Shown piece by piece: positions 2,704 through 14,854 of a stretch of DNA of 36,723 bases (position 1 is its first letter; every line of letters starts with the position of its first letter). The DNA comes from a virus. The DNA is taken from IMG/VR virus record IMGVR_UViG_3300035698_018351, positions 1-36,723 of that record. The stretch is one strand, 5' to 3'. A program made the translations under genes and the position numbers. The notes under the pieces were generated by a model, which searched no databases, was not told the DNA's origin, and saw only the letters and a list, made by a program, of their open reading frames with translations.

Positions 2704-2910
2704 TTAGATTTTTGTTACAACCGTAGCCTGCATACCTTTCGGTCCTTTTTCAGGGATAAATGATACATCATCCCCTTCACTTAGAGATTTAAATCCATCT
2801 CCTGTTATTTGAGAAAAATGAACAAATACATCACCGTCAGGACTTTCGATGAATCCAAAACCTTTTTTGTCATTAAACCACTTTACCTTACCTTTTGATT
2901 CTGTTGCCAT
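2704..2910 (-). CDS. csp: Cold-shock domain protein (CspA family)
   Basis: A 68-residue single-domain OB-fold protein. Both RNA-binding motifs are intact: RNP1 KGFGFIE (near residues 16-22) and RNP2 VFVHFS (near 28-33), after the hallmark GKVKWFND. Family members bind single-stranded RNA or DNA without strong sequence preference and melt secondary structure, acting in the cytoplasm as RNA chaperones or antiterminators. Length is normal for bacterial CspA. Phage-borne copies are known. This one sits between two structured non-coding stretches, the leader hairpin at 2943-2962 and the candidate RNA at 2476-2690. Its role in the phage (mRNA stability, antitermination) is inference. Confidence 0.95.
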
Positions 2911-5885: not shown

Positions 5886-5970
5886 ACCCTTTCATATAAC
5901 ATGATCATTTTTTAACCTCCATATGATCGCTTCCACCTCCCATAATTCCCTATGTTCAAAATAATTATGT

Positions 5971-6240
5971 TTATCTTGTGTTCGGCAGATATAATACATT
6001 GTCTTTTGTATGTTCATACTTTATTGTATTCTTTAGCTCTTTCTTCTTTTTGCATGACGATTTCCACAATGATAGAAATAATAATAATAATAAGTATACA
6101 CAATAAAGTGAATATAAAATGATACATGCTAGAGTGATATCCCAAATTCCAAGTCCCCTATAATATATCATTACATTTGATGTTATAACTCCAATAAAGA
6201 ATGAAGTTATAAATATGAAAAATACTTTATTATCATTCAT
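5971..6240 (-). CDS. Two-span membrane protein, last gene of the paralogue operon
   Basis: The chosen start is the ATG at 6240, eight bases inside the end of the preceding gene (overlap ATGAATGA). A longer in-frame reading would need a TTG at 6264. The product is 89 residues: a first hydrophobic segment VFFIFITSFFIGVITSNVMI, a short loop, then a Leu-rich segment IILYSLYCVYLLLLLFLSLW, and a basic tail starting SSCKKKKELKN. The positive tail predicts a cytoplasmic C-terminus. No family recognised. A holin-like size and topology is noted, but nothing specific supports it and the endolysin is on the other strand. Confidence 0.65.
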   Translation of the reverse strand: MNDNKVFFIFITSFFIGVITSNVMIYYRGLGIWDITLACIILYSLYCVYLLLLLFLSLWKSSCKKKKELKNTIKYEHTKDNVLYLPNTR

Positions 6241-6757
6241 TAAGATTACTATCCTCCGTATCAAGTTTTTGTAAGATATAAAAAGTTTTTAAATTGTCAA
6301 TGTCTATTTTTTCCTTTTTATAAGATCCAAATTCAAGTAAAACACTTAGTATTTGAAAACAATGTTCATCAATTGTTCCTCTACATATTATATCTGAATA
6401 TGTTCCATTATATGGTTCAGTATTACTATTACTTTCTACTTTAAATACTTTTTCATTAAAAATATAATAATCTTTTAATTTAGTAGAAGTGAATAAAGTA
6501 TCAATTACTTGATTTTTTAAAAACCCTGCCATTTCATATAGTAATGCCCTGCCGGAATCACTATAACCTTCTTCTTCAAATACTGCAGTTATCGCATTTT
6601 TCATTCTCCAAAAATTTGCATCTTTAGAAGTAAATGAAAATTTAATAAATTCAGCTATTACTTCTTTCCAAGGACAATCTTTTACATTTTCAACATCAGC
6701 AGGAGATAATGTATCTATATAATCCCGTATAAATTTATTAATGTCAACCACACCCAT
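6233..6757 (-). CDS. Hypothetical protein in the paralogue operon
   Basis: 174 residues, acidic and soluble, with alternating helices and several aromatic pairs (FWRMKNAITAVFEEEGY, YYIFNEKVFKVE). It overlaps the end of the Trp-repeat gene by 14 bases. AGGGAGG sits directly against the ATG at 6757, so the GTG at 6751, six bases further on, is an equally good start. It also overlaps the next gene, so translation is coupled throughout. No motif or family recognised. Position suggests a job connected with the Trp-repeat protein and the paralogue array. Confidence 0.7.
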   Translation of the reverse strand: MGVVDINKFIRDYIDTLSPADVENVKDCPWKEVIAEFIKFSFTSKDANFWRMKNAITAVFEEEGYSDSGRALLYEMAGFLKNQVIDTLFTSTKLKDYYIFNEKVFKVESNSNTEPYNGTYSDIICRGTIDEHCFQILSVLLEFGSYKKEKIDIDNLKTFYILQKLDTEDSNLNE

Positions 6758-7838
6758 CCTCCCTATCTAATTTAGTAAGTATAGCGTCACTTACCCACAA
6801 ATCTTTAAATTCTGAATTATTCTTTTCAAACAGACATTGCAATCCTTCGGCATCATATCCTTCCCATATTCCTGATTTATACCAATCAGGAAAATATTTA
6901 GGACAATGATCAGATAGTAAATTAGTATATTTAAATCCAACTTTTTCAAATACAAAAGGCCACCAAGTTTTAAACTTATCTGAACATTTAGTTATAAGTA
7001 TATGAATATATTGACTATCAAATTTATTTGGATCCCACCATTTATCAAAATGCATAGGACAATACTGAGCCAACACTTCACAATAATCCCAATCATAATT
7101 CTCTGAATCCCACCACTTATCAAAATGAGATGAACAACAACGAGCTAACCTCCAAGTATGAAGTATTGTTACTTTTTCTTTATCATACCACTTATCAAAA
7201 TCTCCTGAACAACTGTTAATTAATTCACTAAGACAATCATCCCAATTAAATTTATCAGCATCCCACCATTCAGAAAATCTCTGAGGATGATGTTCAATAA
7301 GACAATCCCATTCATAATGATGTGGAGTTAATTCATCTTTTATAACAGGCCACCAATCATTGAAATGGTTTGGACATTGTGTCATGAGATTATCCATAAA
7401 CCAATCAAAATCTCTTAGTTTTTTAATTTTTTCAACATCCCACCAATCATGAAAATGTTCAGGACAATGTTCAGCTAATTCCATTATACCATTAGGATAA
7501 TTAAATTTTTTAGGAGTCCACCACTTATCAAATTTTTCAGGGTAAACTCTACACAATGTTCCGCTATTATTAGTCCAGTCAAATCTACTAGGAGTCCACC
7601 ACTTATCAAAATAATGTGAATAGTCTGAAATTAATAATCTGCTGATTTCTTTCCAATTTACTTTTGAAGCGATAAACCAATCATCAAACCTATAATGACA
7701 ATACTCAGCTAGAACTCTTGATTTGGTTTTATATGGGAATGTCTTAGGATTAAACCATTCGTCAAATCGTCCCCCAATGTGTCTTAGTACCCTTTTATCC
7801 CGACTGAGGGCTTTTTTCAATGACCATTTATCTTTCAT
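6744..7838 (-). CDS. Trp-rich tandem-repeat protein (about 13 FDxWW repeats)
   Basis: 364 residues made almost entirely of a 25-30-residue repeat. Each unit starts with an aromatic signature such as HFDKWWDPNKFDW and ends in a helix with a Cys-Pro pair (LAEYC, LAEHCPE, LAQYCPM). I count about 13 units from FDEWF near residue 25 to FKDLW near residue 346; the central ones are most regular. Units of this length with one conserved aromatic turn usually stack as helical hairpins into a solenoid that binds protein or nucleic acid, but that is inference. The ATG follows GGGAGAAATC, nine bases after the last paralogue gene, so it belongs to the same operon. I do not recognise a named family. Confidence 0.85.
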   Translation of the reverse strand: MKDKWSLKKALSRDKRVLRHIGGRFDEWFNPKTFPYKTKSRVLAEYCHYRFDDWFIASKVNWKEISRLLISDYSHYFDKWWTPSRFDWTNNSGTLCRVYPEKFDKWWTPKKFNYPNGIMELAEHCPEHFHDWWDVEKIKKLRDFDWFMDNLMTQCPNHFNDWWPVIKDELTPHHYEWDCLIEHHPQRFSEWWDADKFNWDDCLSELINSCSGDFDKWYDKEKVTILHTWRLARCCSSHFDKWWDSENYDWDYCEVLAQYCPMHFDKWWDPNKFDSQYIHILITKCSDKFKTWWPFVFEKVGFKYTNLLSDHCPKYFPDWYKSGIWEGYDAEGLQCLFEKNNSEFKDLWVSDAILTKLDREDGCG

Positions 7839-7847
7839 GATTTCTCC

Positions 7848-8150
7848 CTATCCAATGTCATGTTCAATTTTAAACATCATTCGAGCAATATTACCAAATG
7901 CTTTTATACCAAATAATTCATCATTTCTATATAATGTTATATTATGATGACGTTCAGAGGTATGTATTTCTAATTTTATAGATTCACAACCAAGTCTATC
8001 ATTAGGCCACCATTGTGTTATATCAGTAAGTATACCTTTATGTTTGTAAAGTGTATATGTACTCCCTCCTGAATAGCATTTTTTTGTTGTAATAATTACC
8101 AATTGATCTACATAAGGTTCCAAACTATTTATAAATAAGTTAGTAATCAT
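7848..8150 (-). CDS. LFKIEHDI-tail paralogue, copy 11 (last in array)
   Basis: 100 residues, start ATG at 8150 after AGAGGAT. Like its siblings it has an N-terminal helix (FINSLEPYVDQ), a first strand QLVIITTKK, a KGIL turn (KHKGILTDI near residue 37), several further strands and the terminal tag MMFKIEHDIG. This copy has a Trp pair (TQWWPND) that others lack, and ends in Gly rather than Ala. The spacing KL-I-x-I then KGIL recalls small SH3- or Sm-like barrels, but this is only a fold guess. The spacer to the Trp-repeat gene is nine bases, the same as within the array. Confidence 0.8.
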   Translation of the reverse strand: MITNLFINSLEPYVDQLVIITTKKCYSGGSTYTLYKHKGILTDITQWWPNDRLGCESIKLEIHTSERHHNITLYRNDELFGIKAFGNIARMMFKIEHDIG

Positions 8151-8159
8151 AATATCCTC

Positions 8160-8435
8160 TTAATCAATATCATGTTCGATTTTAAATAATATTTTTTCAG
8201 TTTCATCATGTTCGATTATTTTTTCTCTATATTTACCTAAGCTAGCCCTATAATGTAAATTAATAACTACACCATTACCTTGCCCACATTCAAGTTGACA
8301 TACAACTAACAATTTGCTAGTACGGGAAGATTGAATGAAATTGCGACTTTTCAAGATACCTTTTGTAGTCTTATGTCCTGGATCAATTATAGTTATCAAT
8401 TTATTCATATAATGATCAGTTGAAACATCATCCAT
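8160..8435 (-). CDS. LFKIEHDI-tail paralogue, copy 10
   Basis: 91 residues, the shortest copy, with GGGGAG upstream of the ATG at 8435. It contains YMNKLITIIDPGHKTTKGIL near residues 9-28 and ends with KIIEHDETEKILFKIEHDID. Both segments are close matches to copy 6 (9333-9617: YINKLITIIGPGYSTIKGIL and KIIEHDETEKLLFK), while the middle differs. So copies 6 and 10 form a recent pair, or have exchanged sequence. Function unknown. Confidence 0.8.
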   Translation of the reverse strand: MDDVSTDHYMNKLITIIDPGHKTTKGILKSRNFIQSSRTSKLLVVCQLECGQGNGVVINLHYRASLGKYREKIIEHDETEKILFKIEHDID

Positions 8436-8446
8436 ATCATCTCCCC

Positions 8447-8728
8447 TTATGCAATATCATGTTCAATTTTAAATAACATTTTTGCATTATCGCTTTTTAT
8501 AGTTATCATCTTCATCGCAAGGTTATTAGTAGGTCCTAATTTTATTCTAGTCACTTTATCTGAATGAGTCTGAACAACAACAAATGTCATATTCGTATCC
8601 TTATTAGTAAATACTTCTGTAATAATACCTGTAGCTTCTAAAGTATTATTATCATCATTATTTCTAATAAGAATTATATGTACTAATTCATTTACAAATG
8701 TATGTAAACAGCGATTAGTCAATCTCAT
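8447..8728 (-). CDS. LFKIEHDI-tail paralogue, copy 9
   Basis: The ATG at 8728 is chosen because AAAGGGATTATT precedes it and it falls ten bases after the previous gene, matching the spacing of the array. A reading from 8749 would overlap that gene. The product is 93 residues: N-terminal helix, ELVHIILIRNND strand, a TGIITEV turn where other copies have KGIL, a Thr/Val-rich middle (MTFVVVQTHSDK), and the tag KMLFKIEHDIA. It is among the more divergent copies. Function unknown. Confidence 0.75.
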   Translation of the reverse strand: MRLTNRCLHTFVNELVHIILIRNNDDNNTLEATGIITEVFTNKDTNMTFVVVQTHSDKVTRIKLGPTNNLAMKMITIKSDNAKMLFKIEHDIA

Positions 8729-8738
8729 AATAATCCCT

Positions 8739-9029
8739 TTAAATATCATATTTAAGTTTAAATAAAATTCTACTAGTATCAGAATATTGTTTTACGTCTA
8801 TAAGCTCAGATGGTCTCGTAATCAACATTCTAATAACTCCTTTAATACCTTGTAACATAATAATTACACCATCAATATATCTAACAGCATCATATAAAAT
8901 TCCTACTGATACTCGTATATTAGAATTTAATAATGGTAACGGGTCATCCCATCTAACACTAACACGTATTAACTGATCATCATAATGTTTAAGTGATAAA
9001 ATCATTTCTTCAATTTCCTGATCGTCCAT
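8739..9029 (-). CDS. LFKIEHDI-tail paralogue, copy 8 (divergent tag)
   Basis: 96 residues, ATG at 9029 after GGGAGATAAT. It has an acidic N-terminal helix (MDDQEIEEMILSLKHY), strand QLIRVSVRW, a VSVGILYDA turn in place of KGIL, and the most divergent end of the set, RILFKLKYDI, lacking the final Ala. Its middle is unusually Ile/Val/Leu-rich (DGVIIMLQGIKGVIRMLI), consistent with core beta strands. It keeps the nine-base spacing behind copy 7. Function unknown. Confidence 0.78.
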   Translation of the reverse strand: MDDQEIEEMILSLKHYDDQLIRVSVRWDDPLPLLNSNIRVSVGILYDAVRYIDGVIIMLQGIKGVIRMLITRPSELIDVKQYSDTSRILFKLKYDI

Positions 9030-9038
9030 ATTATCTCC

Positions 9039-9323
9039 CTATGCAATATCATGCTCAATTTTAAACATTGCCGCCTCTACATCACTTCCGATTGTCATAC
9101 TTACTAAATTTTGTTTAGTAACTAAAATTGTTTCATTTCCAATATCAGTAATTATAGTCAATGTTATTTTATCGGGATTTTTCATACTTCCAGCCATCAT
9201 CCAGAGTATACCTTTATATATGTGATTTACTGGCGATTCTTGTATATTATATGTACACCATATCATTATTGTTATATATTTACCGTAGCATTTACTAATT
9301 TTTTCATATACTGTCGGATACAT
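9039..9323 (-). CDS. LFKIEHDI-tail paralogue, copy 7
   Basis: 94 residues, ATG at 9323 after AAGGAG. It belongs to the same subgroup as copies 1 and 2: KCYGKYITI, then HIYKGILWMMAG, then VTKQNLVSMTIGSDVEAAMF and the tag FKIEHDIA. In all three the segment before the tag reads I-x-x-G-x-[DE]-[IV]-[DE]-x-A, so this subgroup is defined beyond the tag. Function unknown. Confidence 0.8.
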   Translation of the reverse strand: MYPTVYEKISKCYGKYITIMIWCTYNIQESPVNHIYKGILWMMAGSMKNPDKITLTIITDIGNETILVTKQNLVSMTIGSDVEAAMFKIEHDIA

Positions 9324-9332
9324 ATCAACTCC

Positions 9333-9617
9333 TTATATATCATTTTCAAGTTTGAATAATAATTTTTCAGTTTCATCATGCTCAATTATTTTTTCTTGAT
9401 ATTTATGTTCATCTATTTTATATATTATTCTAACATGTCTCATTTTATCTGGTTTAAATTCTAGTGAACATGATGTAGAAAATGTGTTAACAGTTTCATG
9501 ATAATATCTATAATCTTTCAAGATACCTTTTATTGTAGAATATCCAGGTCCTATTATAGTTATTAATTTATTTATATATAAAGTAATTGAAGTAATATCT
9601 TTCATTCTAGTTTCCAT
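9333..9617 (-). CDS. LFKIEHDI-tail paralogue, copy 6
   Basis: 94 residues, ATG at 9617 after AAAGGGTATT. It is closest to copy 10: YINKLITIIGPGYSTIKGIL near residues 14-33 and KIIEHDETEKLLFK near the end, with a shortened tag LFKLENDI lacking the last Ala. The central 35 residues are unrelated to copy 10, suggesting the ends are conserved or exchanged while the middle diversifies. Function unknown. Confidence 0.8.
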   Translation of the reverse strand: METRMKDITSITLYINKLITIIGPGYSTIKGILKDYRYYHETVNTFSTSCSLEFKPDKMRHVRIIYKIDEHKYQEKIIEHDETEKLLFKLENDI

Positions 9618-9626
9618 AATACCCTT

Positions 9627-9923
9627 TCATGCAATATCATGTTCGATTTTAAATAACATTAAATCAATCTCAGGCATAACTTTTATTCCCCAACCAACAA
9701 TTGCATATTCACTAAACCAGATAGTATTTGGTTTATATTTCGTAGATACATAACATCTTACACAAGGTATAATTCCTTCTTGAAGTATACATTCATTGAT
9801 AATACCATTAAACACAAGCTCATTTTTCCAATTGTAAATTTTTATTAATTTATGTAAATTAGCACTTAAAATTTTACATACCTCCCTCGCAGTAAGATTC
9901 TCTAAAGCATTCATTTTTTTCAT
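9627..9923 (-). CDS. LFKIEHDI-tail paralogue, copy 5
   Basis: 98 residues, ATG at 9923 after AAGAGGATATT. It has a longer N-terminal helix (ALENLTAREVCKILSANLH), strand KLIKIYNWKNEL, FNGIINEC at the KGIL position, a Cys/Val-rich middle (PCVRCYVSTKYK) and the tag LMLFKIEHDIA. Four cysteines in all, more than its siblings. Function unknown. Confidence 0.8.
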   Translation of the reverse strand: MKKMNALENLTAREVCKILSANLHKLIKIYNWKNELVFNGIINECILQEGIIPCVRCYVSTKYKPNTIWFSEYAIVGWGIKVMPEIDLMLFKIEHDIA

Positions 9924-9932
9924 AATATCCTC

Positions 9933-10259
9933 TTATGCAATATCATGTTCGATTTTAAATAGACTTTTACCAACATCATCATGTTTGTATATTTTAAGAT
10001 GTTTATTATCAATCTCATAATACCAAACTATCATCTGTCGAACTTCTTCATTTGACATTTGAATATATAATACAATTCTAAAATATTTCATTGTATCACT
10101 ATCTTTTTGTCTTTCAATTCTATTTAAAATACCTTTCGTCGTAATTGAAGTATTTTTTATACGACTTATGAAAGATATTAATTCTCCGATATGTAATTTT
10201 GCCATCTTAACAAACTCTTCGAATTGATCTTGAGCAGTAGTACTTATGTATATAGACAT
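9933..10259 (-). CDS. LFKIEHDI-tail paralogue, copy 4
   Basis: 108 residues, ATG at 10259 after TAGGAGAATAAT. The N-terminal helix is extended (TAQDQFEEFVKMAKLH), followed by ELISFISRIKN, TTKGILNRIER, long strands (MKYFRIVLYIQM, VRQMIVWYYEI) and the tag KSLFKIEHDIA. Before the tag, KHDDVGK occupies the position of EHDETEK in copies 6 and 10, pointing to common ancestry over the last ~20 residues. Function unknown. Confidence 0.8.
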   Translation of the reverse strand: MSIYISTTAQDQFEEFVKMAKLHIGELISFISRIKNTSITTKGILNRIERQKDSDTMKYFRIVLYIQMSNEEVRQMIVWYYEIDNKHLKIYKHDDVGKSLFKIEHDIA

Positions 10260-10268
10260 ATTATTCTC

Positions 10269-10643
10269 CTATGCGATATCATATTCGATTTTAAATAATG
10301 CTGAATCGACATCTGAGTAAGTTATTATTTTACATTTTTTTTGTAAAATTGAAGTATTTATATATTCATGTTTACATCGTAATGAATAAGAGATATAACT
10401 AACATAATCATTATAGTCAACATCATGGTCATGGTCATCACTATTTAGATAACTTTTCTTTGTAGTATATTTGACATAAGTTTCATAATCCCCACCTTCA
10501 GCAATTACCAAATCACATTTAATAAGAATTCCTGTTACAGTTGCAAATCCACCTTTATCAAGTGTTATCAATTTATTCATATTCTTTTCCAATATTTCAT
10601 AAATTGATTCAATATCAAACCCGATATATGTATTACTATTCAT
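10269..10643 (-). CDS. LFKIEHDI-tail paralogue, copy 3 (longest)
   Basis: 124 residues, the longest copy, ATG at 10643 after TAGGAGAAGAT. It shares IESIYEILEKNMNKLITL with the N-terminal pattern of copies 1, 2 and 7. TVTGIL follows, then an insertion very rich in Asp, Tyr and Ser (NSDDHDHDVDYNDY) that no other copy has, and the tag SALFKIEYDIA. The Asp/His cluster could bind metal, but there is no further support. Function unknown. Confidence 0.8.
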   Translation of the reverse strand: MNSNTYIGFDIESIYEILEKNMNKLITLDKGGFATVTGILIKCDLVIAEGGDYETYVKYTTKKSYLNSDDHDHDVDYNDYVSYISYSLRCKHEYINTSILQKKCKIITYSDVDSALFKIEYDIA

Positions 10644-10651
10644 ATCTTCTC

Positions 10652-10939
10652 CTATGCAATATCATATTCGATTTTAAATAATGCTGTTTCAATTTCATTT
10701 CCATAATGGATACTCATTAAATTTATTTCGTTTACTAAAAATAATCTTTCGCCTTCATCTGAATTCATTGTTACTACTACTGAAAAAACTTCATCATCAT
10801 CTAAAACTTTTTCATCATCTATAAATGTAATTATCCCTTTAAATACAAACATTATACCTTTACTTGGAGGAGACCATTTTAATTTTACTGTTGATACTTT
10901 ACCAATACATTTTTCTAATTGTTCATATATTGTTTCCAT
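10652..10939 (-). CDS. LFKIEHDI-tail paralogue, copy 2
   Basis: 95 residues, ATG at 10939 after AGGGGAATGTA. Subgroup of copies 1 and 7: IYEQLEKCIGKVSTVKL, then FVFKGIITFID, an Asp/Glu-rich loop (DDEKVLDDDEV), VNEINLMSIHYGNEIETALF and FKIEYDIA. The tag has Tyr in place of His, as in copy 3 next to it. Function unknown. Confidence 0.8.
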   Translation of the reverse strand: METIYEQLEKCIGKVSTVKLKWSPPSKGIMFVFKGIITFIDDEKVLDDDEVFSVVVTMNSDEGERLFLVNEINLMSIHYGNEIETALFKIEYDIA

Positions 10940-10948
10940 TACATTCCC

Positions 10949-11227
10949 CTATGCAATATCATGTTCAATTTTGAATAATGCTTCATCAACTTCAGTGCCA
11001 ATTTTTAAATCTATAAAATTATCTTTGGTTAACATAAACATTTCATCTCCCAACTCAGTTGTCATTGTTCCTACAATTTCCTCATCATAGTCAGAATCTC
11101 CAGCTATAGCTTGAAGTACGCCATTATATATACCTATGTAATCTTCTCTTTCTCCAACCAGTGATATAGTACTTAGTGTTATATATTTACCTACATATTT
11201 TTCGAGTTTTTGAATTATCGGATTCAT
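10949..11227 (-). CDS. LFKIEHDI-tail paralogue, copy 1 (first in array)
   Basis: The ATG at 11227 is preferred (AAAGGGTACATTA upstream) over a longer reading from 11248. The product is 92 residues: IIQKLEKYVGKYITL, IYNGVLQAIAGD at the KGIL position, an acidic loop (DSDYDEEIV), LTKDNFIDLKIGTEVDEALF and FKIEHDIA. It opens the minus-strand operon and is divergent from the endolysin gene, with only 41 bases between the two start codons. Its promoter must therefore overlap that gap or lie inside the endolysin gene. Function unknown. Confidence 0.78.
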   Translation of the reverse strand: MNPIIQKLEKYVGKYITLSTISLVGEREDYIGIYNGVLQAIAGDSDYDEEIVGTMTTELGDEMFMLTKDNFIDLKIGTEVDEALFKIEHDIA

Positions 11228-11242
11228 TAATGTACCCTTTCT

Positions 11243-11256
11243 GAACAAATTATAAA
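11243..11256 (+). promoter_or_regulatory. GAACAAAT-type upstream element, site 3
   Basis: GAACAAATTATAAA, 12 bases before the endolysin ATG and directly before its AAGGAG. It lies in the short gap between the divergent endolysin and paralogue operons. Confidence 0.45.
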
Positions 11257-11268
11257 AAGGAGATTATT

Positions 11269-12006
11269 ATGGCTAGTCGAGATTTAGAACTTGTATATCC
11301 GCCATTACGAGATGTTATCGAAAAAGCATTAGATATTGCTAAACAACGAGGATTATTAGTTTTTCTTACATGTACTAAAAGAGATGCTGCTGAACAAAAA
11401 GCTTTATATGCTCAAGGAAGAGAACCCCTTGAAAAAGTTAATGCGATGAGAAAAGAGTGTGGTCTTTGGTTAATTCGAGAAGCTGAAAATAAAAGGAAAG
11501 TTACTTGGACTCTTTCCTCATACCACACACTTGAGCCTTTATCAATGGCAATTGATTTCGCTATTAAATATGAAAATAATAAAACTTGCTGGGATATTAA
11601 AGCAGATGTAAATAATAATGATATTCCTGATTATAAGGAATTTGGTGAGATATGTAAAGAAGTTGATCCTATAAATATTGAATGGGGTGGCGATTGGAAA
11701 AAACCTGATAATCCTCATGTTCAATGGAAAAATGGTAAAGTATTAAGTCAAGTAATCCACGATGAAAAGAATAAAGAAACAGATGAGCAAGAGTTTAAAG
11801 AGGAAGAACATTCCGTTGATGATACCGCAAATCAGAAAGATAATAATGAAAATGATACTCAAAATGACACACAAGTTAAGACAGAATCTGATGATAGTCT
11901 TCATGTTAAACCTCCTTGCATAATTAAAGATGATATGCCTATTTTAAAATTTATAGATAAACTATTTTCACTGTTTAAAATTAAAAAAGGGGAGAAAAGT
12001 AATTAG
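11269..12006 (+). CDS. Endolysin, M15-type (LAS) peptidase with acidic C-terminal tail
   Basis: 245 residues. Residues ~1-155 look like an M15/VanY-type peptidase, the family of L-alanyl-D-glutamate and D-Ala-D-Ala peptidases that cut peptidoglycan stem peptides with one zinc ion. Likely zinc ligands are His86 (SSYH), Asp96 (SMAIDF) and His150 (DNPHVQW); EWGGDWKKPDNPH is the usual C-terminal signature. Many members have seven positions between the first His and the Asp; here there are ten. Residues ~165-220 are an Asp/Glu/Asn-rich low-complexity stretch, followed by a short hydrophobic-basic end (LKFIDKLFSLFKIKK). There is no signal peptide, so it needs a holin or similar for export. AAGGAG precedes the ATG. 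Lysis is the expected role; a virion-associated role is less likely. Confidence 0.85.
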   Translation: MASRDLELVYPPLRDVIEKALDIAKQRGLLVFLTCTKRDAAEQKALYAQGREPLEKVNAMRKECGLWLIREAENKRKVTWTLSSYHTLEPLSMAIDFAIKYENNKTCWDIKADVNNNDIPDYKEFGEICKEVDPINIEWGGDWKKPDNPHVQWKNGKVLSQVIHDEKNKETDEQEFKEEEHSVDDTANQKDNNENDTQNDTQVKTESDDSLHVKPPCIIKDDMPILKFIDKLFSLFKIKKGEKSN

Positions 12007-12025
12007 CTCTTCTCCCCTCTTTTGC
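11989..12025. terminator. Bidirectional intrinsic terminator
   Basis: GGGGAGAA at 11989-11996 pairs with TTCTCCCC at 12010-12017, between the convergent endolysin gene and the MoxR-like gene. On the minus strand the stem is followed by a run of six T; on the plus strand by TCTTTTG. It probably ends both transcripts. Confidence 0.75.
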
Positions 12026-12041
12026 CCCCCTCTTCCCCTCC

Positions 12042-13394
12042 TTATACTACTTCTGTAATTTGTTTAATAATATCAGATGAATCTACTAACTGTCTGGCTA
12101 GTTTGGCAGATCCATTTTTCTTGTCACCTTTCAATAAAACCTTTAAACCAAGTGGTACAATTGGTCTACAGTGTTGGGTGATTCCTTCAAGTACTTTCTT
12201 AGTACTTTCAATATGAACTTTGTCAATTGATTGACCTCTTCTCATTCTTTTCAGAATCTCATCAATAACAACTGTCATAAGGGAATACATTTTAATCTGG
12301 TCAATATTTCCAAAATTAGGAAGACCCCTTCCTTCAAGTATGTCATTGGCATTCCACTCAAGCATAAGAGTTTTATATTCAACAAATTTACCTGCATATT
12401 CAGATCCAATATGACCTTTCATAATTGTATAAATTTGAGCAATATCTACTCTGTCTACCCAGTCCTCAAAATGAGTTAATTTATCTGAAGCATATGTCCA
12501 CGATCTGGGAGATGCCCATGCTTCATTTTCTCTTGGATCACTGGATAAATACATCGGTTGATTTTGTAAGAACATTAATATATCTGTCCTTATACCATAA
12601 TCCACAGCGAAGTTTCTTGTCCAGTCATCAATGTCGCTTTTAACATCAATAAAATCAATCCTGTTAGTAATAGGTGCAAGCATCTGCTGGAATCCTGCTC
12701 TGTCGTTTGACCTATTACCTGCCATTATTAAAACAACATTCTTAGGAAGTTGATGTGAGTTGATAGACCGATATGTAAGTAACTGGAATAAGTAACTCTG
12801 CATTGTTTTATTTAACAAATGAATATCATCCAATGCGAGTACCATTGTATCTTTATCCCAATTAAATGCTACATTACCTTTATCATCAGTTGGAGTATAT
12901 CTTATATTCCGAAATGAAAATAATTCAGGTAATGACCATTGAGTATAAAGTGGTTCTTCCTGTACTTCATACTCAGGGATAGTTTTAATAATATCTGAAA
13001 TCGGTCCCATTTTTGAAAGTTCTTTCATTCCTTTAACATCTTTTAAACTTTGAGCAAACCAACGATGCCATTGTTTTTCAGATGCTGATCCTGCTTTAGG
13101 TAAACCAGTTAACTGCTCAAGTTGCATTGTTGCCATATAATAAACAGTCAATGCAGTAGGATGACCCTTTGCAGTAAGTTGTTTACAAATTGTTTCAAGT
13201 AAATCACTCTTACCTATTCCAGGAGGACCTGATATACAAAGTGCACTATATCGAAGTTCATTAGCATGTGAATGTTTACTTAATGCAGTCTTATGCATCA
13301 TGATATGATTTTCAACAAATGGTACTACTTTATTAAGATCAAGAACACCCCCAAATACTCCTTCGTCGTCAGCTACTTTCCTTTTTCCTGCCAT
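12042..13394 (-). CDS. MoxR-like AAA+ ATPase
   Basis: 450 residues from the ATG at 13394, which lies nine bases after AAGGGAG; an ATG at 13403 touches the ribosome site and is less likely. Walker A is GPPGIGKS (residues 56-63), Walker B MVLALDD (184-190), and sensor 1 follows as VVLIMAGNRSND (220-231), the pattern of the MoxR/RavA branch. These ATPases remodel or activate proteins, typically together with a VWA-domain partner, and that partner is the adjacent upstream gene at 13409-14854, in the same operon. The substrate is unknown. In a phage it could help assemble or mature a virion or replication complex. The C-terminal third, beyond residue ~300, has no motif I recognise. Confidence 0.88.
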   Translation of the reverse strand: MAGKRKVADDEGVFGGVLDLNKVVPFVENHIMMHKTALSKHSHANELRYSALCISGPPGIGKSDLLETICKQLTAKGHPTALTVYYMATMQLEQLTGLPKAGSASEKQWHRWFAQSLKDVKGMKELSKMGPISDIIKTIPEYEVQEEPLYTQWSLPELFSFRNIRYTPTDDKGNVAFNWDKDTMVLALDDIHLLNKTMQSYLFQLLTYRSINSHQLPKNVVLIMAGNRSNDRAGFQQMLAPITNRIDFIDVKSDIDDWTRNFAVDYGIRTDILMFLQNQPMYLSSDPRENEAWASPRSWTYASDKLTHFEDWVDRVDIAQIYTIMKGHIGSEYAGKFVEYKTLMLEWNANDILEGRGLPNFGNIDQIKMYSLMTVVIDEILKRMRRGQSIDKVHIESTKKVLEGITQHCRPIVPLGLKVLLKGDKKNGSAKLARQLVDSSDIIKQITEVV

Positions 13395-13408
13395 AATCCC
13401 CATCTCCC

Positions 13409-14854
13409 TTATATTTTAACTTTTATTATTTTCCCATTGATCCCGGGATGTTGTCTGTCGTTATTTGTAATATAAATCCTTGGTAACCAATATGGAAGTA
13501 AATGTTGAGTATCTTCCACATCTGAATCCAAATCTGAACAACTTATATATGCTGATACCATATTATCTGGATCTTTATTTATATACTCAGTAATCTTTTC
13601 AAATACATCTTTATGACTTGTACCGCCACTTTGTTTTCTTTCAAGAAGTTCATCAATATCAACTTCACCCATATCTTCATACATTTTAGTCCACCCAACA
13701 TTCCAGTCATGTTTAATAACCCAAAGAGCTTTATAATGTTCTCGGCTTTGTTGAACAATACCTACAGCATCTCGAACATCATTATCACTCATTGATCCTG
13801 ATTCATCAATACTAAATATAACAATCCCGAATTTTTCTTCTTCAATTCGAACTGGTCTATAAGCAATTGTTGTAGGATTAGCTAACCATAAAGGACTGGG
13901 TTTCGACCAAGCGACTTCCCAAGATTTTTCAAGTGCAGTCATGATTGAATCAGCTAATATCTTCTTCCAATCAACCTGTACTTTAAAAAGTCGTTTAATA
14001 AATTTCCCAAGTTTAGATGAACCTATTCCTCTTGTTAATTCACCTTCCATCATTTGACGACCAATCGCAGCAGATTCTTTCATCTTCTTATCCATTTCAT
14101 CTAACTGCTCAGAAGTCATATTTGCAGGAGTTGGGAATTCAACTTGTACATCTTTAAACTTTTTACCATTAACTTCAAATGTAGTTTCAATTACATTTAT
14201 TTCCTGAGATGAATCTTCTTCAGTACCTTTATCACCAGGTTTCTTATCTTTATCCTTGTCATTTTTATCTCCTTCTCCTTCTCCTGGATCTTTGCCACCC
14301 AATAAATCTGAAATAGACATCTTGGATATTTTTTGTTTGTATTTACATTTCTTACTCATAAGTACATCATAAACTTCTTCTTCGATCATGTTATCAAACA
14401 TGTTATCAATACAAAATTCTTTATTATATTGACTTGTATTACATGAAATAAGTTTAACCTTTTGATGTGGCTCAAGAGCTTGTAATAGCAAATTAATAAC
14501 AAAATCCCCAGCGATATTCCACATATAAGGATTTCGATTTTTAATTCTAAAATCATGAAAAAGAATTATATGCATCATTTCATGTAACAAAATAAATGCA
14601 GCAATATGTTTTTCTTCTTTTATCCTTTCAATTGGGTCGTCTGGTTTTGTCCCGATATATATCTGCTGTCTATAATGGTCGATAGCAGCTCCTGCATGTT
14701 TTGGTAATGTTTTAGTTGGAATTATTTCATATTCTAATAACTTTAACCCATGTGGTCGAAATATGGGATCCCTGATCATTTTAGATGCTAGTCGAAGACA
14801 TAACTTTTGAATTTGATATCCTCGACTTAAATCAACATTGTCCTTTTCTATCAT
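13409..14854 (-). CDS. VWA-like metallopeptidase (DUF2201 type), partner of the MoxR ATPase
   Basis: 481 residues. The N-terminal half has a zinc-peptidase helix LLHEMMHIILFH with H91-E92-x-x-H95, preceded by PIFRPHG. A Lys/Asp/Gly-rich linker follows (residues ~187-225). The C-terminal half has a VWA-type metal-binding motif, FSIDESGSM (D350, S352, S354). This order, a putative metallopeptidase followed by a VWA-like domain, is that of the DUF2201 family (COG3864). Such proteins pair with MoxR ATPases, whose gene follows here after 14 bases. The VWA part would dock on the ATPase or substrate through a bound metal ion; whether the peptidase cuts anything is unknown. The ATG at 14854 comes shortly after the small zinc protein gene. 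Confidence 0.85.
   Translation of the reverse strand: MIEKDNVDLSRGYQIQKLCLRLASKMIRDPIFRPHGLKLLEYEIIPTKTLPKHAGAAIDHYRQQIYIGTKPDDPIERIKEEKHIAAFILLHEMMHIILFHDFRIKNRNPYMWNIAGDFVINLLLQALEPHQKVKLISCNTSQYNKEFCIDNMFDNMIEEEVYDVLMSKKCKYKQKISKMSISDLLGGKDPGEGEGDKNDKDKDKKPGDKGTEEDSSQEINVIETTFEVNGKKFKDVQVEFPTPANMTSEQLDEMDKKMKESAAIGRQMMEGELTRGIGSSKLGKFIKRLFKVQVDWKKILADSIMTALEKSWEVAWSKPSPLWLANPTTIAYRPVRIEEEKFGIVIFSIDESGSMSDNDVRDAVGIVQQSREHYKALWVIKHDWNVGWTKMYEDMGEVDIDELLERKQSGGTSHKDVFEKITEYINKDPDNMVSAYISCSDLDSDVEDTQHLLPYWLPRIYITNNDRQHPGINGKIIKVKI

Follow-up and report, generated by a model that had tools for sequence, protein, structure and literature searches.

An array of eleven tandem genes with a constant C-terminal end and a predicted Sm-like barrel fold in an uncultured tailed phage

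Array layout and homology of its members

We analyzed an IMG/VR virus record (IMGVR_UViG_3300035698_018351) of 36,723 bases with ~30% G + C, the whole of which is referred to below as the window. Between positions 7848 and 11227, the window carries eleven consecutive open reading frames (ORFs) on the minus strand, each encoding 91–124 amino acids (aa) and all ending in variants of one short sequence, here called the tag. A first-pass annotation of this DNA had described the array, and the ORFs were found where it placed them. The reported separation of 8–11 bases holds if the gene at 8447 starts at the internal ATG 8728; with ATG 8749 as the start, this gene would overlap its upstream neighbor. 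All eleven reading frames are intact and, at most junctions, the Shine-Dalgarno-like ribosome-binding site of the next gene overlaps the preceding stop codon.

Numbered from the upstream end, all on the minus strand, gene 1 (10949–11227, 92 aa) starts at ATG 11227, with an upstream TTG at 11248 also possible, and is followed by genes 2 (10652–10939, 95 aa) and 3 (10269–10643, 124 aa), the latter with an insertion of ~30 residues past the second predicted strand. Genes 4 (9933–10259, 108 aa), 5 (9627–9923, 98 aa), 6 (9333–9617, 94 aa), 7 (9039–9323, 94 aa) and 8 (8739–9029, 96 aa) come next, and genes 9 (8447–8728, 93 aa from ATG 8728), 10 (8160–8435, 91 aa) and 11 (7848–8150, 100 aa) complete the array.

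The shared LFKIEHDIA-type ends noted earlier are present in all eleven proteins as FK[IL][EK][HYN]DI, to which nine add one residue (A, G or D). The tag consensus is [DE]-x-x-x-[AIM]-[LM]-F-K-[IL]-E-x-[DE], and the invariant alignment columns are G39 (gene 7848 numbering), F93, K94, D98 and I99; within the tag, the charged K, E and D vary no more than the hydrophobic positions. Each gene has its own copy at the 3' end (for example, NIARMMFKIEHDIG, including the stop codon, at 7848–7892 on the minus strand), and the codons vary synonymously (TTT/TTC, ATT/ATC/CTT, GAA/GAG) while the amino acids stay constant. Near the N-terminus, the proposed K/E-L-I-x-I strand corresponds to a shared but loose pattern (KLITI, QLVII, ELVHI, KYITI, KVSTV), whereas the supposed KGIL-type turn is, from the alignment and the structural model, the second barrel strand, which contains the one invariant glycine.

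To compare the cores, the last 14–15 residues were removed, and a hidden Markov model (HMM) built leaving out the subfamily under test was scored against shuffled sequences. This HMM recognized all eleven cores, ten of them with only 0–4 of 1000 shuffles scoring as well; the core of 9039 was the weakest (29/1000). Pairwise core comparison joined 10949, 10652 and 9039 into one subfamily and 9333 and 8160 (40% core identity) into another, in addition to three orthologue pairs with the sister contig L009; the remaining members are too diverged for pairwise detection. The eleven cores are homologous independently of the tag, so the copies are genuine paralogues, and the case of unrelated folds joined by a common end was not seen inside the array.

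The suggestion that the family is undescribed is borne out by the searches, which placed the copies in no characterized family. Scans of the array members against Pfam, PHROGs, NCBIfam and PADLOC gave nothing credible, including no credible PADLOC or named-PHROG match to a known defense or anti-defense family among the members scanned; a single member matched NF003230 (NCBIfam, E 0.0004), a match that was not followed. No matches were obtained by tblastn with the array proteins and 20-aa tag queries against 50,697 phage records, by GTDB scans using single array members, or by PDB sequence search, where a likeness to eIF1 (E 0.6) was judged a chance hit. When IMG/VR was scanned with a DNA pattern of the tag and an adjoining stop codon, only the known contigs and chance matches came up; the chance matches (L022, L023, L024, L025, L027 and L035) lay in a different frame or belonged to unrelated proteins. 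Neither the tag nor the FDKWW motif discussed below is mentioned in the papers found.

Predicted fold and divergence of the cores

We modeled gene 1 (10949–11227) with AlphaFold2 using a 14-sequence alignment (predicted local distance difference test score, pLDDT, 87.7; predicted template modeling score 0.75) and sought structural neighbors with VIA-align and Foldseek. The predicted order of elements is helix, b1-b2-b3-b4-b5, helix, with the tag (residues 79–88) forming an extra C-terminal helix directly after the fifth strand. The top VIA-align match is GerQ (Z 8.5); the rest of the top 50 are mainly Hfq, archaeal SmAP and eukaryotic LSm/Sm chains (Z 6.9–7.7; superpositions of 1.5–3.0 Å across 58–65 residues), interspersed with WYL and bL19 barrels. 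Thus, the single-structure prediction yielded a recognizable Sm-like fold, which the cores probably share; this fold and the helical form of the tag are both predictions.

The invariant glycine of the array sits in the second strand according to the alignment and the model, and the Sm1 motif likewise has a glycine in its second strand. However, the Sm1 (D-x-x-[ML]-N) and Sm2 (RG) RNA-binding signatures are absent from all eleven array proteins, and no window member reaches the curated cut-off of Pfam LSM; a sub-threshold match was obtained for the tagged protein L015:9396 (E 0.016; 15.3 bits versus a cut-off of 23.4). The charge of the members spans −12 to +2, which makes a common electrostatic ligand unlikely. 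Given the lack of canonical RNA-binding signatures and the wide range of charges, we call the modeled barrels Sm-like in fold and do not regard them as members of the Sm/LSm/Hfq family.

A sister phage contig, L009 (IMGVR_UViG_3300035698_023842), is syntenic with the window, with an M15 peptidase gene, an FDKWW-repeat gene and a 174-aa gene as neighbors, and contains three array copies versus eleven in the window. The orthologue pairs are gene 8 with L009:10311-10592, gene 9 with L009:10607-10885, and gene 11 with L009:9998-10300 (54% identical). Orthologous cores are 25–53% identical, compared with 40–81% for syntenic neighbors, and their ratio of nonsynonymous to synonymous divergence (dN/dS) is ~0.8–1.1 in all three pairs, against 0.14–0.55 in ten other gene pairs. 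The core dN of two pairs (0.70–0.85) is the fastest in the shared stretch, and that of the third (0.39) outpaces most genes; tag dN (0.20–0.41) is below core dN in all three pairs, the third pair's tag being also low in dS. On these estimates, core divergence is close to neutral, whereas the tag end is constrained. The proposed selection for variety does not follow, since a dN/dS of ~1 on small, noisy alignments does not prove positive selection. Nor do the roles suggested earlier for the copies, as inhibitors, receptor-binding variants or hetero-oligomer subunits.

Another contig, L015 (IMGVR_UViG_3300035698_017884), has two adjacent tagged genes with the ends DALMFKLEHDL and DRIMFKLEHDL. We considered it as an independent phage, but its tetranucleotide profile (r 0.83 with the window and 0.80 with L009; ≤0.63 for unrelated contigs), the metagenome it shares with L009 and the GIY-YIG-like genes common to both weaken this view and suggest that L015 probably represents a further part of the phage lineage of the window and L009; the family is therefore known from one lineage only. 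On L030, a contig of the window's phage, a 134-aa protein (10276–10677, minus strand), far from the array, looks barrel-like by eye (VGKLIKDID) and has a tag-like end, TETEIIFWKLEKED. As the barrel profile recognizes neither the L015 cores (126/2000 and 1917/2000 shuffles as good) nor the L030 protein (221/2000), these are counted as tag carriers only. Next to the two tagged L015 genes (at L015:413-3236 and 10085-11482) are a confirmed QueC gene, a probable QueE-like gene and the gene of a 465-aa, putatively DpdA-like protein; 7-deazaguanine DNA modification is possible in this lineage, judging from these genes.

Tag-like ends beyond the array and the phage genome

We scored all ORFs of the window, G001 and G003, and those in part of G002, with a position-specific matrix covering the final 12 residues of the tag. 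The highest-scoring internal 12-residue segment reached 11.1 bits (~35,000 segments, seven contig pieces). Outside the training genes, the top score was that of the C-terminus of an L009 protein with FDKWW repeats (17.9 bits), followed by that of a 117-aa protein, L015:13336-13689 (13.1 bits). The FDKWW repeats are ~26 residues long, with F-D-x-W-W followed by D-P-x-K-F-N-W. The FDKWW proteins have no match in Pfam, PHROG or PDB, and neither they nor the 117-aa protein match the barrel-family profile, which lowers the likelihood that the tag is there for structural reasons only.

Downstream of the array, the window encodes its own FDKWW-repeat protein (6744–7838, minus strand; 364 aa, 12 repeats of ~26 aa), with a weak tag-like end, SDAILTKLDRED (3.2 bits), whereas its L009 orthologue (L009:10891-12021) has a strong tag, ATDAIMFKLEFE. 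A 174-aa protein (6233–6757, minus strand) ends in FYILQKLDTED, weakly tag-like and not significant by the tag matrix; its 172-aa L009 orthologue scores 6.9 bits. A 41-aa ORF (5892–6017, minus strand) ends in the tag-like ELWEVEAIIWRLKNDHVI (12.4 bits) and, from its sequence, may be left over from a second FDKWW gene or form its tail, comparable to L009:12504-13389. That second L009 copy, which scores 7.4 bits, is interrupted and spans two frames, owing either to a mutation or to an error in assembly, and a G002 protein scores 8.7 bits. L017, an IMG/VR contig whose genome signature differs, has four FDKWW genes (positions 9983–13755), three in a row and the fourth just downstream.

The window encodes tail sheath, baseplate and tail-tube proteins and contains no tRNA genes, and a near-identical contig, G002 (99.96%), adds a terminase and an NAD-dependent ligase; the source is an uncultured tailed phage. 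The divergent boundary of the array is an M15 peptidase gene (11269–12006, plus strand), the same neighbor as in L009. In the 41-bp gap between them lies GAACAAATTATAAA (11243–11256, plus strand), oriented toward the M15 gene and away from the array. The GAACAAATWWTAAA motif has seven plus-strand sites in the window as 11-base matches (3388, 5448, 11243, 15232, 18448, 20926 and 23155), and the same or a close sequence occurs at L030:7651 and 12660 (plus strand); at two or fewer mismatches there are 22 matches versus 9.6 expected. These sites lie upstream of plus-strand, mostly virion genes and of the M15 gene, and the motif is likely a phage promoter element. No exact or one-mismatch copy was found upstream of the array on the array strand, which hints weakly at an expression class for the array other than that of the virion genes.

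Elsewhere in the window, the gene at 13409–14854 is assigned to an HNH endonuclease by PHROG 1314 and to a DUF2201 metallopeptidase/VWA protein by Pfam; with the adjacent MoxR-like ATPase gene (12042–13403), it looks like a MoxR-VWA pair. A 68-aa gene at 2704–2910 (minus strand) appears, from its sequence, to encode a cold-shock (CspA-like) protein. A second tandem set of three paralogues is present on L030 (6235–6720, 6734–7111 and 7154–7633), with a common N-terminus, FW[IV]GxPxxxxRxN[WY]LG, a YTYAWF or FTYIWY segment, and divergent C-termini.

Interpretation and comparison with known systems

The explanation that we tentatively prefer, while holding it short of probable, is that the tandem array combines variable Sm-fold barrels with a constant, portable C-terminal docking helix, the barrels acting on different targets. 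The tag helix would dock every member on one common partner, which may be a host protein or else a structure or protein complex of the phage, whereas the barrels, multiplied by tandem duplication and diverging fast, would each expose a distinct surface to a separate target, host factors involved in phage–host conflict being the likeliest. Because the constant helix would bind one partner and the variable barrels others, duplication and drift of the barrels would bring new activities to the same place. The earlier proposal that the constant tag is a docking, assembly or localization signal is favored by the constrained end and by the tag-like ends outside the family, with docking itself still conjectural. 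The predicted Sm-like fold, the three-copy sister phage and a tagged set wider than the array all go beyond the first-pass annotation. It is also conceivable, though doubtful, that the tag is a previously undescribed portable address helix that recruits two or more unrelated types of protein (Sm-fold barrels, FDKWW-repeat proteins and perhaps the 117-aa protein) to one phage structure, the array being exchangeable (eleven versus three copies).

Several observations weigh against a docking role for the tag and an Sm-like fold of the barrels. Synonymous differences among tag codons are fewer (0.23) than predicted from genome usage (0.36), so some tag similarity may reflect recent common descent or gene conversion; furthermore, several of the tagged non-array genes adjoin the array, and recombination between neighbors could have spread the ends. 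The dN/dS values come from 77–86 codons of hard-to-align sequence with high dS. On the structural side, the best Foldseek E-value is just 0.013, a VIA-align Z below 8 can mean a common structural arrangement, and a good model was obtained for one member only (the AlphaFold2 model of L015:9396, with pLDDT 43.6, was not used). The tag helix is itself confidently modeled (block mean 92), and thus part of its conservation may be due to packing on the barrel.

The last point is the core of the strongest alternative, an ordinary paralogue cluster in which the helix is simply the last fold element, kept for stability, and the copies result from duplication under weak selection. Confident placement of the helix directly after the fifth strand and near-neutral core evolution speak for it; however, tag-like ends occur on FDKWW-repeat and 117-aa proteins that do not match the barrel family, conservation of the tag is as strict at K, E and D as at its hydrophobic residues, and all eleven frames are intact. 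We consider this explanation unlikely, although it deserves real weight. Somewhat further down the scale, the proteins might be packaged in the capsid, with the tag helix as a capsid-targeting sequence, and the barrels injected with the DNA against host defenses, as for T4 IPI. The T4 internal proteins IPI, IPII and IPIII follow this logic, with a short constant N-terminal capsid-targeting peptide and strongly divergent bodies that vary among related phages (PMC9026906), and the phage studied here is contractile-tailed, encoding a sheath as well as a terminase and an NAD-dependent ligase. Yet in the array the constant element is C-terminal and the N-termini vary, many members are acidic whereas the T4 proteins are basic, and the absence of the virion-gene motif GAACAAATWWTAAA on the array strand hints at a different expression class; packaging and ejection are accordingly judged a rather poor prospect.

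A hetero-oligomeric, RNA-binding Sm-like ring, with the eleven barrels as different LSm-like subunits, would suit the predicted fold and the many paralogues side by side in an operon-like array, but is improbable given the missing Sm1/Sm2 signatures in all members, the mere three copies in the sister phage, a fast divergence unusual for ring interfaces and the widely differing charges. Most improbable is a DNA-level effect, in which the 3' ends are alike through the stop and ribosome-binding-site needs of the next gene or through neighbor recombination: stop codons do overlap Shine-Dalgarno-like sequences at most junctions and tag codons are somewhat less varied than expected, but the amino acids stay constant where synonymous codons vary, and the tag is also present where the following spacing differs (L015:9725-10075, L009:10891-12021).

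If variable barrels on a constant docking helix are indeed what the array encodes, joining one constant tag to fast-changing modules would give a phage a general means of connecting new activities to a single machine, and both that machine and further members could be traced through the tag. Eleven diverged Sm-like barrels in one phage would be unusual.

Among known systems, the Sm/LSm/Hfq/SmAP proteins resemble the array members in the predicted N-terminal helix and five strands, the second-strand glycine and, in several members, a fourth strand that ends in an N-[ILF]-x-x-[IM]-like pattern; the array differs in lacking Pfam LSM membership and the Sm1/Sm2 signatures and in its extra constant C-terminal helix. 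Several of the best structural matches are WYL, GerQ and bL19 SH3-like barrels (GerQ, Z 8.5; WYL chains of PafBC and BrxR, Z 7.2–7.5; ribosomal bL19 chains), but these show no sequence match and sit in larger proteins or other assemblies. By analogy, the array may work like the T4 internal proteins, with which we do not claim identity: in both, the proteins are small and join divergent, phage-variable bodies to a short, constant peptide at one terminus, whereas the array has a C-terminal tag, a predicted Sm-like fold, eleven members in tandem and no sequence similarity found to the T4 proteins.

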